From: Bacteroidetes bacterium SCGC AAA795-G10
GTDB lineage: Bacteria > Bacteroidota > Bacteroidia > Flavobacteriales > Flavobacteriaceae
NCBI GenBank assembly: GCA_003130815.1
Contig: QFDA01000001.1
Location: 696,131-760,130 of the forward strand
Direction: 5' to 3'
Length of the DNA stretch: 64,000 nt
Made by a program: the position numbers and the translations under genes. Shown here in pieces: positions 1 to 6,108 of the stretch; the first letter of the stretch is position 1; each line of letters begins with the position of its first letter. The notes beneath the pieces were generated by a model that worked only from the letters and a program-made list of their open reading frames with translations, searched no databases and was not told the DNA's origin.

Positions 1-718
1 TTCTTTAGAAGCTGCTACTACGGCCTTAATAAAAAACAAAATAGATGTTTTAGTTACAGCACCAATCAACAAAAAAAACATTCAATCGAAGCGGTTTCAA
101 TTTAAAGGTCACACTGATTATTTGGATAAAGAAATTAATGGTGAGAGTTTGATGTTTATGATATCCGATCAAATAAAGCTTGCACTTGTAACTGATCACA
201 TCCCTTTAGCCAAAGTAAATGAATTTGCAACAAAAAATACAATCATAAAAAAAATTAAAATTCTAGAACATAGCTTAAAAAGTGATTTTAATATTTCTGA
301 GCCAAAAATTGCCATTTTAGGCATTAATCCACATGCTGGTGATTATGGAGTTATTGGAGAAGAAGAGGAGACTTTTTTAAGACCATTGGTAAAAGCTCAA
401 TTTGATAAAGGTATTAGAATCGATGGCCCTTTTCCTGCTGATGGATTCTTTGGAAGTCAGTCATACCAAAAATTTGACGCTATACTTGCTATTTACCATG
501 ATCAAGGGCTGATTCCATTTAAAACATTATCATTTGGGGAAGGTGTCAATTTTACTGCAGGACTCGATAGAGTTAGAACATCTCCTGATCACGGTACTGC
601 ATATGATATTGCTGGACAGGGAAAGGCGAATCATAATTCTTTTAAAAAAGCACTTCATGCGGCAGGAGAAATTTTCTTAAATCGTAAAAAATTTAATGAC
701 GCTGTCAATCAAAATTAA
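1..718 (+). CDS. pdxA: 4-hydroxythreonine-4-phosphate dehydrogenase, 3' part (5' end outside window)
   Basis: PdxA oxidises 4-phosphohydroxy-L-threonine with NAD in the DXP-dependent route to pyridoxal phosphate. The frame is open from base 2, so the gene begins upstream of the window; 238 C-terminal residues are visible and roughly 100 are missing compared with the usual 330-350. Visible family motifs are VTAPINKKNI, the GHT metal/substrate site, NPHAGDYGVIGEEE, PFPADGFF, YHDQGLIPFK and TSPDHGTAYDIAGQGKAN, which include the conserved metal-ligand histidines. In related flavobacteria, as I recall, pdxA sits directly before the DUF177-rpmF-fabH-acc genes; here that cluster lies about 6 kb away on the other strand. 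It converges with the symporter gene that ends at 743. Confidence 0.95.
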   Translation, partial: SLEAATTALIKNKIDVLVTAPINKKNIQSKRFQFKGHTDYLDKEINGESLMFMISDQIKLALVTDHIPLAKVNEFATKNTIIKKIKILEHSLKSDFNISEPKIAILGINPHAGDYGVIGEEEETFLRPLVKAQFDKGIRIDGPFPADGFFGSQSYQKFDAILAIYHDQGLIPFKTLSFGEGVNFTAGLDRVRTSPDHGTAYDIAGQGKANHNSFKKALHAAGEIFLNRKKFNDAVNQN

Positions 719-758
719 TTAATTAGAAATATTTAGGAGTAATTAATTTTTATTTTTA
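711..758. terminator. possible bidirectional terminator between pdxA and the BASS symporter
   Basis: An 11-bp AT-only inverted repeat (711-721 with 740-750) flanks an 18-base loop and is followed by a T-rich run. It lies exactly between two convergent genes. The stem has no G-C pairs, so it would be weak and may be a chance feature of AT-rich DNA. Confidence 0.3.
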
Positions 759-1657
759 AATATGCTCACAAAAAAACTTCCTAAAAGAGAATGGACAAGA
801 CTGGATAATGCAGCTGGTATAGCTACCAAAGGGCTATTAAAGTTTTCACGAGCAAGAACAACTCCTAGTCCTGAGTTTTGCATTCCTACTTCTATAGAGA
901 TTGTTTTTGCAACTTTTAAGTTTTTAAATGCAATCAAACTTATCGAAAAACCAATAATAAAGCCTGAAAGATGAAGTAAAATCAATGAAACTAAAAGTTT
1001 AAATCCTGATTCCAAAATAACATCTTTTCCCTGCCCTACAATACTGCCTACAATAAGACATATTAATAACACAGCTAAAGGTGGAGCATAATGTAAAACT
1101 TTTGAAACATACTTTGATAAGTACTTATTTAAAATTATACCAATTGAAATAGGAATTAAAACAACCTTAAGAGTACTATAAAATAGTCCCATTGCAGATA
1201 TATCAAGATAACTTCCAGAAAGTTTGAGAGTTAAAAAGGGGGTCATAAAAATTGCAATCATCGTTGAGCAGGCAGTCATACAAACTGAAAGAGCAACTTC
1301 AGCTTTAGACAAATATGAAATTACATTAGAAGCTGTTCCCCCAGGACAGCATGAAACTAAAATCATACCTACGGCAAAAAGAGGAGGCAAATCAAAAATC
1401 TTAGCAATTCCCCATCCTAAAAAAGGCATAATAAGAAACTGAAGTATTAACCCTGTAATTACCCAATTAGGACTTTTTAGTACTTCAATAAAATCAGAAC
1501 TTTTTAATGTAAGACCCATCCCAAGCATTATTCCTGCCAAACCAAGTGTTATTGATGATCCACTAAACCATGTTGTCAATGGAGGATGTAATAAACCCAA
1601 AAAAGCGAAAATTGAAACAATCCATGGGAATGCATTAGTAAATCGAGTCATAACCAT
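743..1657 (-). CDS. bile acid:sodium symporter (BASS) family transporter
   Basis: This 304-residue integral membrane protein has the hydrophobic pattern and internal motifs of the BASS/SBF family (Na+-coupled symporters of organic anions). They include GIMLGMGLTL near residue 40, a CCPGGTASNV segment near residue 103 that matches the conserved sodium-site region, and a late EVGMQNSGLGVVLA segment near residue 256. Eight to ten membrane helices are apparent. In bacteria such proteins move pantoate, pyruvate or other small organic anions; the substrate here cannot be told from sequence. It is a single-gene unit divergent from the SulP gene. The start is the first ATG of an ATG-GTT-ATG pair; the second is equally possible. 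Confidence 0.88.
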   Translation of the reverse strand: MVMTRFTNAFPWIVSIFAFLGLLHPPLTTWFSGSSITLGLAGIMLGMGLTLKSSDFIEVLKSPNWVITGLILQFLIMPFLGWGIAKIFDLPPLFAVGMILVSCCPGGTASNVISYLSKAEVALSVCMTACSTMIAIFMTPFLTLKLSGSYLDISAMGLFYSTLKVVLIPISIGIILNKYLSKYVSKVLHYAPPLAVLLICLIVGSIVGQGKDVILESGFKLLVSLILLHLSGFIIGFSISLIAFKNLKVAKTISIEVGMQNSGLGVVLARENFNSPLVAIPAALSSLVHSLLGSFFVSIFKNKN

Positions 1658-1809
1658 TCAATTAAAAATAATAAATGTAGCACTTTAACAGGATTTAATT
1701 ATCCGTAAAAAAAGCAATATATTTTACAATAAAAAGATTCTTTTTTATTTTTGCTCCTCATTAATAACCATATGTGTTTAGTTAATTAAAATAATTCGAA
1801 TAAGATTGT

Positions 1810-3336
1810 ATGAAAAATTCCACTTTACTTTCAAATTTAAAAAGCGACATACCAGCAAGTATAGTAGTATTTTTTGTCGCACTGCCACTTTGTTTAGGGA
1901 TTGCTTTAGCAAGTGGTGCCCCACTATTTTCTGGTCTAATTGCTGGAATAATAGGTGGAATAATTGTGGGTATTATCAGCGGTTCTCAAATAGGAGTAAG
2001 TGGTCCTGCTGCAGGACTTGCGGCTATCGTTTTTACTGCGATTGGAGATCTAGGTGGCTTTCAAAACTTTCTTCTAGCTGTAGTATTAGGTGGACTTATT
2101 CAATTTGTCTTCGGTATACTTCGAGCAGGAGTTATAGGTTATTATTTCCCTTCATCAGTTATAAGGGGAATGTTAACAGGTATAGGTATCATAATTATTA
2201 TTAAACAGGTAAGACATTTTTTTGGTTATCAAAGTCCTGGAGAAGAATTTCCTGGAATTTTAGAGGCTTTAAATTATATAAATCCTGGAGCAACATTAAT
2301 TGCTATTGTAAGTATGGGAATATTATTGCTTTGGTCAAATATTTTGAGTAAAAAAGGGAAGATTTTTCAATTAATCCAAGGACCACTCGTTGCCGTTATA
2401 ATTGGGATTATTTATGTTGTTTTCACAAAAGGGAATAATTATTGGGCGATTCAGTCAGAACTTTTGGTTTCAGTTCCGGTTCCTGAGGATATGAATTCGT
2501 TTTTTGGTCAATTTAGTTTTCCAAACTTTCAAGGCATCACAAGAGTTGAAATTTGGATAACAGCATTTACGATAGCTCTTGTTGCAAGTCTAGAGACACT
2601 TTTATGTGTCGAGGCAACGGACAAATTAGATCCAGATAAACGAATAACACCTACAAACAGAGAACTCATTGCTCAAGGGACAGGGAATTTTATTTCTGGT
2701 TTAATAGGAGGTTTACCAGTAACTCAAGTTATTGTGAGAAGTTCCGCAAATATTCAATCTGGAGGTAAAACAAAAATGTCTGCTATCATTCATGGATTCT
2801 TTTTGTTAATATCCATTCTTCTCATTCCTGCATTACTTAATCAAATTCCATTATCTGTATTAGCAGCTATACTTTTTATAGTGGGATATAAACTTGCAAA
2901 ACCAAGCTTATTTGTTACGATGTATAAATTAGGCTGGAAACAATTACTTCCATTTTTGATTACTATTATCGGGATCGTTTTCACGGATCTTTTGATAGGT
3001 ATTGGTTTAGGATTAATATTAGGAATAGTAATTATATTAATTAATAGTTTTCAAAATTCACATTCAATTTCAACAGAGGGGAAAAATAAAACTAAAATCA
3101 CATTAGCAGAAGAGGTTACTTTTTTTAATAAGGCATCAATACTTAAGGAATTAAATAAATTACCAGAAGCGACATCCCTTGAAATAGACTTAAGAGGAGC
3201 GAAATTTATAGATAATGATATAATTGAAATTTTTGAAGATTTTTTGGCAAAACAAAAAAATAAGAACTTTGAATTTAAAATTATATCGGAAAAAGGGGAA
3301 TACAAAAACCCAGAAAATCTTGCCGAATTATTTTAG
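1810..3336 (+). CDS. SulP family inorganic anion transporter with STAS domain (candidate bicarbonate transporter)
   Basis: The 508-residue protein has the SulP/SLC26 layout: a hydrophobic core of about 12-14 membrane segments up to roughly residue 420, then a cytoplasmic STAS domain (about 430-505, with the LEIDLRGAKFID core). The N-terminal ALPLCLGIALASGAPLFSGL and GVSGPAAGLAAIV segments are typical SulP signatures. SulP proteins carry sulfate, bicarbonate (BicA type) or other anions. The next gene, 73 bases downstream on the same strand, resembles an iota-class carbonic anhydrase, which makes bicarbonate the best guess. SulP genes beside carbonic anhydrases have been reported in marine flavobacteria with proteorhodopsin. 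Family assignment is firm; substrate is inferred from context. Confidence 0.92.
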   Translation: MKNSTLLSNLKSDIPASIVVFFVALPLCLGIALASGAPLFSGLIAGIIGGIIVGIISGSQIGVSGPAAGLAAIVFTAIGDLGGFQNFLLAVVLGGLIQFVFGILRAGVIGYYFPSSVIRGMLTGIGIIIIIKQVRHFFGYQSPGEEFPGILEALNYINPGATLIAIVSMGILLLWSNILSKKGKIFQLIQGPLVAVIIGIIYVVFTKGNNYWAIQSELLVSVPVPEDMNSFFGQFSFPNFQGITRVEIWITAFTIALVASLETLLCVEATDKLDPDKRITPTNRELIAQGTGNFISGLIGGLPVTQVIVRSSANIQSGGKTKMSAIIHGFFLLISILLIPALLNQIPLSVLAAILFIVGYKLAKPSLFVTMYKLGWKQLLPFLITIIGIVFTDLLIGIGLGLILGIVIILINSFQNSHSISTEGKNKTKITLAEEVTFFNKASILKELNKLPEATSLEIDLRGAKFIDNDIIEIFEDFLAKQKNKNFEFKIISEKGEYKNPENLAELF

Positions 3337-3409
3337 TTAAAAAAAAATTGAAATTATATTTAACTATTAACTGCGAAATGAAAAGAACTATTAACTTAAA
3401 TTATATATA

Positions 3410-3871
3410 ATGATTACTAGAGAACATGTTTTAGAAGCTCAAAAATTATGGGGTGACGGTGTTGTAAAAATTGGATCCTTAAAACAAAGTAGAACTGAAT
3501 GTGAAGAATATGCTAGCAATTTTCTTGATAATCGTTATGCTTTTGAACAAGGCGATGTTTTATTCAAGCCTACGAAATGTGAATTAGAACAATTTAGGCC
3601 AACTAAATCAGAAGCATTATCATATTTTATTGCTGGTGATGATAGAGCATGCCAGGAAGATAAAGGATTTGCAATAAATCCTTGGACAAATGTGAGATTT
3701 GAGAACACTGGCTTTATTTTAGAAGAAAACAGAGCTATCGCAATGGGAAATTATTTTTTCACTGATTTACAAGGTGTTGAAGCTAAAGTAGAGTACACAT
3801 TTGGTTATAAATTGTCAAATGGGGAGCTAAAAATTGATTTACATCATTCTTCATTCCCATTTACAAATTAA
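3410..3871 (+). CDS. iota-class carbonic anhydrase-like protein (COG4337 type, NTF2-like fold)
   Basis: This 153-residue soluble protein has no signal peptide or membrane segment. It matches, from memory, the widespread bacterial family opening with WGDGVVKIG (often mis-named phosphoribosyl-AMP cyclohydrolase), which belongs to the SnoaL/CaMKII-association-domain-like group. Conserved blocks are GDVLFKPTK near residue 62, EALSYFIAG, NPWTNVRFENTGFIL, AMGNYFFTD and a C-terminal LHHSS at about 144-148. COG4337 members from a cyanobacterium and an alga have been shown to be metal-free carbonic anhydrases, and an HHSS motif is a mark of that class. It follows the SulP gene and ends at a clear terminator, so the two may form one unit for bicarbonate use. 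The fold family is likely; activity is inferred. Confidence 0.65.
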   Translation: MITREHVLEAQKLWGDGVVKIGSLKQSRTECEEYASNFLDNRYAFEQGDVLFKPTKCELEQFRPTKSEALSYFIAGDDRACQEDKGFAINPWTNVRFENTGFILEENRAIAMGNYFFTDLQGVEAKVEYTFGYKLSNGELKIDLHHSSFPFTN

Positions 3872-3899
3872 TAAGACTTTTAAAATTAAATTAACTTAT

Positions 3900-3937
3900 C
3901 CCTTATTCATATTAAATTTGTGAATAAGGGATTTTGT
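3900..3937 (+). terminator. Rho-independent terminator after the carbonic anhydrase-like gene
   Basis: A perfect 10-bp stem (3900-3909 with 3921-3930; cccttattca and its complement) with an 11-base loop is followed by attttgtta. It lies 29 bases after the stop codon of the upstream gene and would separate the SulP/carbonic-anhydrase pair from the peptidase gene. Confidence 0.7.
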
Positions 3938-3960
3938 TATTGAAACAAAGTTTAATAATT

Positions 3961-6108
3961 ATGAGAATATACATCTATTTTATTTTTGTGAGTTTAATTT
4001 TCCTTTCATGTAACGAAAGCCATAAAAAAAATAGTTATCCAGAAACAAAAAAAATTCCAGTAACCGATATTTATTTTGATGAATCAGTAACTGACGATTA
4101 TCGTTGGCTTGAAGATGATAACTCTGATGACACCAAAAAGTGGGTAATTAATCAGAATAATACAACTTTCAAATATTTAGATGAAATTCCTTTTAGAAAT
4201 GATCTTAAGGTTCGACTAGAACAACTTTGGGATTATGAAAAAATTTCAGCACCATTTAAAGAAGGACAATACACTTATTTCTACAAAAACGACGGTCTTC
4301 AAAATCAATCTATTCTTTACCGAGAAAATAATAAAAATGACGTTGAGGTCTTTTTAGATCCAAATAGTTTTTCTAAAGATGGCACTACTTCCCTATCTAC
4401 CTTAAGCTTTTCTAAATCAGGAGATTTAGTTGCATATTCTATAAGCGAAGGTGGAAGTGATTGGAGAAAAATTATAGTTATGAACGCCACTAATAAAAAA
4501 ATTATTGAGGATACTTTAGCAGATTTAAAATTCAGTGGTATACAATGGAAACTTGATGAAGGTTTTTTCTATTCTAGTTATGATAAACCGAAAGGAAGTG
4601 AGCTTAGTGACATGACCGATCAGCACAAATTATATTATCATAAGTTAGGTACCAAACAATCTGAAGACATATTAGTGTATGGTGGAGAAAACGATCAAAA
4701 ACACAGATATGTTGGAGCAAAAGTTTCTGACAATGGGAAGTATCTTTTTATTTCAGCCTCTAAAACAACATCTGGCAATATTAGTTTTTTAAAGGACTTA
4801 AATTTGAATTTGAAAACTAGTCCCTTAATTAGAGTAGATGAAAACTATCAAACAGATAGTTATTTATTACACTCAGATGGGGAAAGGCTGTATATAGTGA
4901 CTAACAGCAATGCACCAAATCAAAAGCTTATAGTGGTTAATGCCAGAAAACCACAAGAAAAATACTGGAAGGATTTTATACCTGAAGGTAAGTATGTTCT
5001 TTCACCAACTGTTGGAGGGGGATATTTTTTTGCTCGTTATATCGTTGATGTGATAACTAAAGTAATTCAATATGATATGGATGGAGTAAATATGGGAGAA
5101 ATAGAATTACCAGGATTAGGAACAGCCTCTGGTTGGAGTGGAAAAAAAGATCAAGAAGTTTTATATTTCAGTTTCACAAACTACCATTCCCCTAGTCAAA
5201 TATATTCTTATAATCCAAAAACAAAAACATCAATAAAATACTGGGAGCCACGAATTGATTTTGATTCAAATGATTATAAGTCAGAACAAATTTTTTATAA
5301 ATCAGAAGATGGAACTAAAATTCCGATGATTATTACATATAAAAAGGGGATCAAATTTAATGGACAAAACCCTACAATATTATATGGCTATGGAGGCTTC
5401 AATATAAGCATCCGACCGTCTTTTAGTATAGCTAATGCCGTTTGGTTAGAACAGGGTGGCATCTATGCTGTTCCAAACCTCAGGGGGGGTGGAGAATATG
5501 GAAAAGAATGGCATAGAGCTGGAACACAACAAAAAAAACAAAATGTGTTTAATGACTTCATTGCAGCAGCAGAATTTCTAATAAAAAATAAATTTACCAA
5601 TCCAGAGTTTCTTGCTATTAGGGGAGGTTCAAATGGTGGTTTACTAGTTGGGGCCACAATGACTCAAAGGCCTGAACTAATGAAGGTCGCATTACCTGCA
5701 GTAGGAGTTTTAGATATGTTACGTTATCATAAGTTTACTGCAGGTGCAGGCTGGGCATACGATTACGGGACTTCTGAAGATTCTAAGGAGATGTTTGATT
5801 ATTTAAAAAGTTATTCTCCAGTTCATAATGTAAAAGAGGATACAAATTACCCTGCCACTTTAATTACAACTGGGGACCATGATGACCGCGTTGTTCCTGC
5901 ACACTCTTTTAAATTTGCAGCCCAGCTACAGAACAAACAAAATGGAGAAAATCCAGTTTTAATTCGGATAGAGACCAACGCTGGACATGGAGCTGGGACT
6001 CCTGTATCAAAAAGAATTGAGCAATATGCGGATATCTTTGGATTTACTCTATTCAATATGGGATTTAAAGTATTACCTCAAAAGGTTAAAAATAAAGTAA
6101 AAGGGTAA
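3961..6108 (+). CDS. prolyl oligopeptidase (S9A family), lipoprotein
   Basis: A 715-residue serine peptidase of the prolyl oligopeptidase family, which cleaves short peptides after proline. The N-terminus is a lipoprotein signal with lipobox L-S-C (Cys17), so the enzyme should be anchored in the envelope after LspA processing. A beta-propeller (about residues 70-430) precedes the alpha/beta-hydrolase domain. The catalytic triad is visible: Ser557 in GGSNGGL, Asp near 642 in DHDDRVVP and His676 in AGHGAG. I chose the ATG at 3961 over an in-frame TTG at 3934 because it puts the lipobox at the normal distance and leaves the upstream terminator outside the gene. It probably digests peptides in the periplasm. 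Confidence 0.93.
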   Translation: MRIYIYFIFVSLIFLSCNESHKKNSYPETKKIPVTDIYFDESVTDDYRWLEDDNSDDTKKWVINQNNTTFKYLDEIPFRNDLKVRLEQLWDYEKISAPFKEGQYTYFYKNDGLQNQSILYRENNKNDVEVFLDPNSFSKDGTTSLSTLSFSKSGDLVAYSISEGGSDWRKIIVMNATNKKIIEDTLADLKFSGIQWKLDEGFFYSSYDKPKGSELSDMTDQHKLYYHKLGTKQSEDILVYGGENDQKHRYVGAKVSDNGKYLFISASKTTSGNISFLKDLNLNLKTSPLIRVDENYQTDSYLLHSDGERLYIVTNSNAPNQKLIVVNARKPQEKYWKDFIPEGKYVLSPTVGGGYFFARYIVDVITKVIQYDMDGVNMGEIELPGLGTASGWSGKKDQEVLYFSFTNYHSPSQIYSYNPKTKTSIKYWEPRIDFDSNDYKSEQIFYKSEDGTKIPMIITYKKGIKFNGQNPTILYGYGGFNISIRPSFSIANAVWLEQGGIYAVPNLRGGGEYGKEWHRAGTQQKKQNVFNDFIAAAEFLIKNKFTNPEFLAIRGGSNGGLLVGATMTQRPELMKVALPAVGVLDMLRYHKFTAGAGWAYDYGTSEDSKEMFDYLKSYSPVHNVKEDTNYPATLITTGDHDDRVVPAHSFKFAAQLQNKQNGENPVLIRIETNAGHGAGTPVSKRIEQYADIFGFTLFNMGFKVLPQKVKNKVKG

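Follow-up and report, generated by a model that had tools for sequence, protein, structure and literature searches.

A metal-free iota-carbonic anhydrase in the probable place of a zinc beta-carbonic anhydrase beside a flavobacterial SulP transporter

Within the 64,000-nucleotide stretch of DNA analysed here (the window), from Bacteroidetes bacterium SCGC AAA795-G10, a gene for a SulP-family transporter is followed by one for a iota-class carbonic anhydrase (CA). The pair probably constitutes a two-gene inorganic-carbon supply operon in which a metal-free iota-CA has taken over, in place, from the usual zinc-dependent beta-CA. The order of the genes and the breakpoints in the DNA both show that the metal-free CA stands in the operon slot occupied by the zinc CA of a sister genome. 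Bicarbonate is the likely substrate of the SulP protein, and the saving of zinc the likely advantage of the swap. Both the enzyme class and the operon type are known; what is new is their combination and the direct evidence of replacement. Among the literature matches listed, none joined iota-CA to SulP or to Zur/COG0523, a weak negative given that the Greek letter may escape matching. Nor was the pairing of SulP and CA in proteorhodopsin-bearing flavobacteria, cited as a precedent in an initial annotation of this DNA, found as such among those matches.

The locus

The window is part of a draft genome, G000, of 1.93 Mb and 88.7% completeness. The initial annotation described SulP and iota-CA-like genes adjoining on one strand, 73 bases apart, and the open reading frames confirm this layout, which is that of a SulP-CA operon, a SulP and a CA gene adjoining on one strand (Table 1). 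The terminator that it placed at 3900-3937 exists as a hairpin, although at slightly different coordinates. Nor is the pairing peculiar to one genome, since the arrangement recurs in three further genomes of the genus (G145, G149, and G154).

Table 1. Features of the SulP/iota-CA locus (window coordinates)
Feature	Position	Strand	Details
SBF-family transporter, upstream anchor	743-1657	-	PF01758, E 3.3e-46; G155 DNA 94.6% identical over 719-1657
Intergenic region 5' of SulP	1658-1809	.	zinc-type palindrome absent
SulP-family transporter	1810-3336	+	508 aa, ATG start; short, weak STAS-like C-terminus; PF00916
Segment divergent from G155 (beta-CA there)	3336-4026	.	blastn match breakpoints 3335/4027
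COG4337-type iota-CA	3410-3871	+	153 aa, ATG start; 7c5v, 7c5x, and NF047901 matches
Terminator-like hairpin, closes SulP/iota-CA pair	3898-3932	+	14-pair stem, loop of 7, T-rich tail
Prolyl oligopeptidase, downstream anchor	3964-6108	+	PF02897 and PF00326; common to G155, G145, G149, and G154

A iota-class enzyme with a conserved active site

Two iota-CAs of solved structure match the window CA, 7c5x at E 1.2e-81 and 7c5v at E 1.7e-29. The homology extends over the whole domain, residues 24-176 of 7c5v aligning with residues 2-151 of the window CA, and places the protein in COG4337. The NCBIfam model NF047901, 'metal-independent carbonic anhydrase', matches as well (E 2.9e-32), with 111.7 bits against an equivalog cut-off of 350 bits. 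This cut-off is passed in no genome among the sets of 120, 38, and 395 searched, indicating that it shuts out the whole branch to which the window CA belongs. A PF08332 match elsewhere in G000 (C44:638714) is a different protein and falls below the cut-off.

Mutation showed Thr106, Tyr124, His197, and Ser199 to be essential in the iota-CA all2909, as reported in PMC8132391. The corresponding residues of the window CA are T55, Y72, H145, and S147 (7c5v alignment, one constant numbering offset), with 7c5v taken to be all2909 from the perfect numbering fit, and all four are kept in 85 of 85 aligned rows of relatives. The metal-free COG4337 enzymes all2909 and Bn86287 (7c5v and 7c5x; PMC8132391) are of the same fold family as the window CA over its full length and have the same Thr, Tyr, His, and Ser active-site set; set against them, the window CA is a single domain and the operon partner of a SulP. 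These comparisons support the assignment, already made in the initial annotation, to the metal-free class, with an intact active site and predicted hydration of CO2 without a metal. The homologous domain begins at residue 2 and leaves no space for a signal peptide, so the enzyme should be cytoplasmic. COG4337 enzymes are reported in PMC8132391 to hydrate CO2 and not to catalyze the reverse reaction, in which case a cytoplasmic iota-CA would trap CO2 as HCO3-.

It is very improbable that the 153-residue protein is instead an NTF2-like protein devoid of CA activity in a coincidental neighbourhood. Such a protein would account for the lack of a Pfam match at E <= 1 and for the score below the NCBIfam equivalog cut-off, but not for the unbroken conservation of the essential residues, for the location of the gene at the beta-CA position of the sister genome G155, or for the recurrent pairing with SulP.

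A SulP transporter distinct from BicA

The transporter belongs to the SulP family by its PF00916 match (E 4.6e-64; 217 bits against a cut-off of 23.2), and its STAS domain (PF01740) is matched at only E 0.021. The initial annotation leaned toward a BicA-type bicarbonate importer, an identification that is rejected here. Among NCBIfam models the protein scores best with DauA (209 bits; cut-off 614), above the BicA model NF050096 (156.9 bits), whose curated cut-off of 880 is not reached. Moreover, none of the six residues of the BicA Na+/HCO3- site is kept: Thr69, Asp258, Thr262, Gly300, Ala301, and Thr302 are A, E, C, Q, V, and I in the window SulP. The Na+ ligands described in PMC13249358 include Asp258 and Thr262, and the Glu and Cys at these positions make Na+ coupling of the BicA kind unlikely. 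BicA, the cyanobacterial SulP bicarbonate transporter (6ki1, NF050096), resembles the window protein as a member of the same family, with about 390 residues aligned, and differs from it in the site residues (PMC13249358) and in the weak STAS part of the window SulP.

These same features could suit a transporter that takes up another anion (sulfate, chloride, or a dicarboxylate) in exchange for HCO3- made by the CA from respiratory CO2, or that serves pH balance, as SLC26 exchangers do with CAs. The preference for DauA and the loss of the BicA site, with Glu in the position of Asp258, both agree with such an exchanger, which hydration-only COG4337 enzymes of the type reported in PMC8132391 would supply with HCO3-. 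This alternative is nevertheless considered unlikely, as related operons point to inorganic carbon. Of the 76 family loci with SulP and beta-CA, 37 have a second, BicA-like SulP (SulP2) downstream of the beta-CA, and BicA-like SulPs also adjoin iota-CA in L132, L128, and L093; SulP2 of L132, beside the iota-CA, matches BicA 6ki1 at E 5.9e-85 with all six site residues. Bicarbonate is retained as the preferred substrate.

Loci in which SulP, beta-CA, and a BicA-like SulP stand in succession (e.g., L139, L143, L147, and L157) are possibly dual-transporter carbon operons. G000 also encodes a SulP of 736 residues (L163:2419-4626; G000:C44 about 571900), and lengths of about 740 residues recur in the genus. 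The long C-terminal region of this protein has no Pfam match at E <= 0.01; a SulP-CA fusion, which would have provided a second carbonic anhydrase, is ruled out by the lack of a Pro_CA domain.

Replacement of the usual beta-CA

The usual partner of this transporter is a beta-CA. SulP orthologues (E <= 1e-60) occur in 231 of 299 genomes of the family, and in 76 of 90 family loci the SulP gene is followed on the same strand by a beta-CA open reading frame; the window is the single locus with a iota-CA, and 13 have neither. The 90 loci consist of 30, the window's own genome included, and 60 picked by the author from the further matches listed, and 6 of the 13 loci without a CA had no more than about 1.5 kb of downstream DNA. 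Within the genus, 18 of 38 genomes have a SulP orthologue, at 19 loci. By coordinates, the CA beside it is of the beta class in 11 and of the iota class in 4 (G000, G145, G149, and G154), with none seen in 4 and both in 0. In G147 the iota-CA starts at the contig end, its upstream neighbour lying beyond the contig. An open reading frame with CxDSR and HxxC, which we take to be beta-CA motifs, is present at 21 of 21 genus beta-CA loci, CxDSR having also served to select the frame. The window operon is comparable to the flavobacterial SulP-beta-CA operon, the usual form of the locus, in its orthologous SulP and in a CA gene directly or shortly downstream on the same strand, and differs from it in that the CA is of the metal-free iota rather than the zinc beta class.

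The sister genome G155 has the same genes flanking the locus. Its SulP is 98% identical to the window SulP and is followed by a beta-CA (PF00484, E 7.2e-41) and then by the same prolyl oligopeptidase gene. In blastn alignments the two DNAs are 94.3% identical over window positions 1-3335, up to the SulP stop codon, cannot be aligned across the CA gene, and are 91.7% identical again from 4027, 63 bases into the oligopeptidase gene. The breakpoints, from blastn and sliding windows, bracket little beyond the CA gene. This pattern in the aligned DNA points to replacement in place of a zinc beta-CA by an unrelated metal-free iota-CA beside SulP. The spread of the beta-CA favours the direction from beta to iota, and G155 could have regained its beta-CA.

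Other genomes display further rearrangement of the locus. G154 (L169) is 91-97% identical to most of window 1810-3600 between flanks of 64-73% identity. Identity is 64-72% 5' of SulP, rises to 93.8% in SulP, is 93.2% across the gap and 91-95% over the initial part of the iota-CA before falling to 75-81%, and is 73% in the oligopeptidase gene. This profile points to recombination between two species at the locus. In G143 and G156 (L172 and L173), the corresponding slot, flanked by the SBF and oligopeptidase genes, is taken by an inverted iota-CA of another lineage, and SulP is absent.

Two settings of one iota-CA subfamily

The wider distribution of the enzyme was followed in 86 related loci, comprising the best 80 of 566 confirmed, which are the nearest relatives, and 6 from the genus; the window is not among them. 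The set holds 84 distinct loci (L172 = L074 and L173 = L089), the repeats being neither zinc- nor SulP-linked. Zinc-homeostasis genes lie within five genes of the iota-CA in 38 of these loci and SulP in 15, with both in 0 and neither in 33. When adjacency to SulP is mapped as a label on the iota-CA tree, it calls for 7 changes of state, and well supported branches force no fewer than 4 of these. The 16 SulP rows of the tree are the window, 14 loci, and L055, which is cut at a contig end and counted as SulP by synteny; L172 and L173 were dropped, and L085, whose SulP lies on the other strand, was classed as other. Chance adjacency of SulP and iota-CA is rejected by this recurrence (15/86 loci and at least 4 forced tree changes), in a test whose 0.6% chance rate is an author's estimate and not a measured value.

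Linkage to SulP is restricted to a single iota-CA subfamily. A count of how often COG4337 genes neighbour SulP, proposed in the initial annotation, gives a divided answer: the pairing holds in three other genus genomes and 15 of 86 related loci, but SulP lies within about 1.5 kb of the iota-CA in none of the 10 further iota-CA genomes sampled from the family and is a neighbour in 3 of 58 order-wide loci, so that a general SulP linkage of COG4337 is rejected. The order-wide sample contains iota-CA in 59 of 395 genomes. Among its 58 other loci, 3 have SulP, 2 have zinc genes and the palindrome described below, 3 have the palindrome alone, and 50 have nothing recognised; 9 of the 58, including all 3 with SulP, were already in the best-80 set, and no new SulP case was added. 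Because only 11 of the 58 belong to the window's subfamily by profile score, the two wirings describe that subfamily and not COG4337 at large. The order-wide loci (L304-L361) include a more distant iota-CA group, mainly from small genomes in a different family of the order, in whose vicinity neither SulP nor zinc genes occur.

The zinc-type neighbours, whose families were named from one representative each, are COG0523 (25 loci), Fur-family (24), MerC (23), and FolE (16) genes. De novo motif discovery detected a palindrome, AATGCAAC-NNN-GTTGCATT, upstream of the zinc-type operons, presumably a Zur box. It scores above 15 in 30 of 38 zinc-type loci, the top of 760 shuffles being 13.9; the palindrome was discovered in the loci that define the zinc class, and the shuffles preserve base composition only. 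It is also found in 7 of 32 held-out loci of neither class, both repeats included, and in 0 of 15 SulP-linked loci, although SulP-linked and held-out loci compared on their own do not differ significantly (p 0.08). At the window pair, the palindrome was found neither upstream of SulP nor in the 73-base gap: scores are 18 to 28 in the zinc-type loci that have it, against a best score of -8.2 in window 1600-1830. On these features the pair, whose neighbours are the SBF and prolyl oligopeptidase genes, does not belong with the presumed Zur-regulated zinc-sparing clusters.

Such clusters have precedents in proteobacteria, in which PMC2770081 describes Zur-controlled replacement of zinc enzymes, including a gamma-CA, beside COG0523. 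The sister iota-CA genes lie likewise near COG0523, Fur-family, and FolE genes, like the alternative enzymes described there. In contrast, the window pair has no such neighbours and no palindrome, and the CA described in PMC2770081 is of the gamma class and proteobacterial.

G000 does contain a perfect palindrome core, TGCAACTCAGTTGCA, beside a gene for a 129-residue Fur-family protein (L296:4317-5351; G000:C44 about 82800-83850) and a TonB-receptor operon that also encodes a lipoprotein-like protein. The Fur-family protein and the receptor probably serve G000 in zinc regulation and zinc uptake, respectively, suggesting that a Zur system exists there and that the SulP/iota-CA pair lies outside it. 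Loose matches number 28 against 22 for a backwards control pattern, so only the perfect match merits weight.

Several further features of these loci may relate to zinc. In 30 of the 86 loci, the gene directly 3' of the iota-CA and in its orientation (e.g., L063:1683-2177, + strand) encodes a 165-residue protein of unassigned family. It is often found in zinc-type clusters and may belong, so far overlooked, to the zinc-starvation response; the one example searched had no Pfam or NCBIfam match. A gene for a PhoX-type phosphatase (PF05787), an enzyme not known to use zinc, lies near the iota-CA in 11 of the 86 loci (L057, L061, L126, and 8 more) and is perhaps a further zinc-sparing enzyme; it was not used to define the zinc class. 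A different palindrome, resembling TTGGAAAC-N-TTGTTTCCAA, stands 5' of the iota-CA in L064 and L070 and may be the site of another regulator.

Carbonic anhydrase content of the genomes

No beta-CA match (PF00484) was found in the draft genome G000. Among the 38 genomes of the genus, 21 have a beta-CA, 11 a iota-CA, 2 both (G139 and G140), and 8 neither, 7 of these 8 being less than 80% complete. The two classes tend to mutual exclusion (Fisher p 0.005, inflated by kinship). In G139 and G140, the iota-CA has a Fur-family gene as its neighbour, and the palindrome is present.

The same contrast was drawn between the two settings in 50 of the 80 loci, 15 SulP-linked and 35 zinc-linked, of which the zinc-linked L124 was left out. 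A beta-CA (PF00484) is present in 0 of 15 genomes with a SulP-linked iota-CA as against 26 of 34 with a zinc-linked one (p 3e-7), the other 8 zinc-linked genomes likewise having none. SulP-linked iota-CAs come from small genomes, of 1.1 to 2.7 Mb, but the contrast persists among genomes of up to 2.5 Mb (0/14 vs 6/11; p 0.003) and when the SulP side only is collapsed to its 7 lineages (0/7; p 3e-4). All the key genomes are drafts, those of this last comparison being of unstated completeness, and kinship inflates the p values. G000 also has a gamma-CA-like gene (NF050158, 153.6 bits; cut-off 250), and the iota-CA may not be its sole CA; the gamma-CA-like search model TIGR02287 matched 14 of 14 control genomes.

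The swap could be real and zinc not its reason, a smaller CA having been acquired by chance through shuffling and genome reduction, or one-way hydration having been favoured. Small SulP-linked genomes, the recombination seen in the G154 tract, and the presence of other iota-CA lineages in the same slot without SulP in G143 and G156 would all fit this account. Weighing against it are the sister genes of the same subfamily in zinc-starvation clusters (38 of the 86 loci) and the survival of the beta-CA contrast in small genomes, which together leave it doubtful. Zinc sparing remains the preferred reason for the swap. The argument from zinc-poor seawater put forward in the initial annotation gains genomic support from the in-place replacement and the neighbourhoods of the sister genes, and PMC8132391 had earlier proposed that a metal-free CA is of benefit in metal-poor open-ocean water.

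Proposed role and implications

In the proposed mechanism, the SulP protein would carry bicarbonate, or an anion exchanged for bicarbonate, across the inner membrane, and the cytoplasmic iota-CA would hydrate CO2 entering or released in the cell, trapping it as HCO3-. Several carboxylases use HCO3- as a substrate, and they would be supplied with it by a CA that costs the cell no zinc. The initial annotation put forward anaplerotic fixation as a putative role of the unit. The iota-CA of the same subfamily would act in related Bacteroidota as a zinc-starvation back-up to the beta-CA, and in the window as the standing partner of SulP, outside presumed Zur control and with no beta-CA found.

The evidence on balance favours two wirings of this enzyme in Bacteroidota: a Zur-controlled back-up to the zinc beta-CA, and a permanent, Zur-free partnership with SulP, acquired several times over in small-genome marine lineages without beta-CA. 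The window would lie near the swap itself, its near-identical sister locus still holding the zinc enzyme or having regained it. That the coupling of SulP and CA outlasts the exchange of one CA class for another suggests conservation of the reaction rather than of one protein contact. The zinc-starvation response of Bacteroidota would gain an enzyme with a predictable regulator, and G155 and the window would provide a natural allele pair for zinc sparing in bacterial inorganic-carbon supply.
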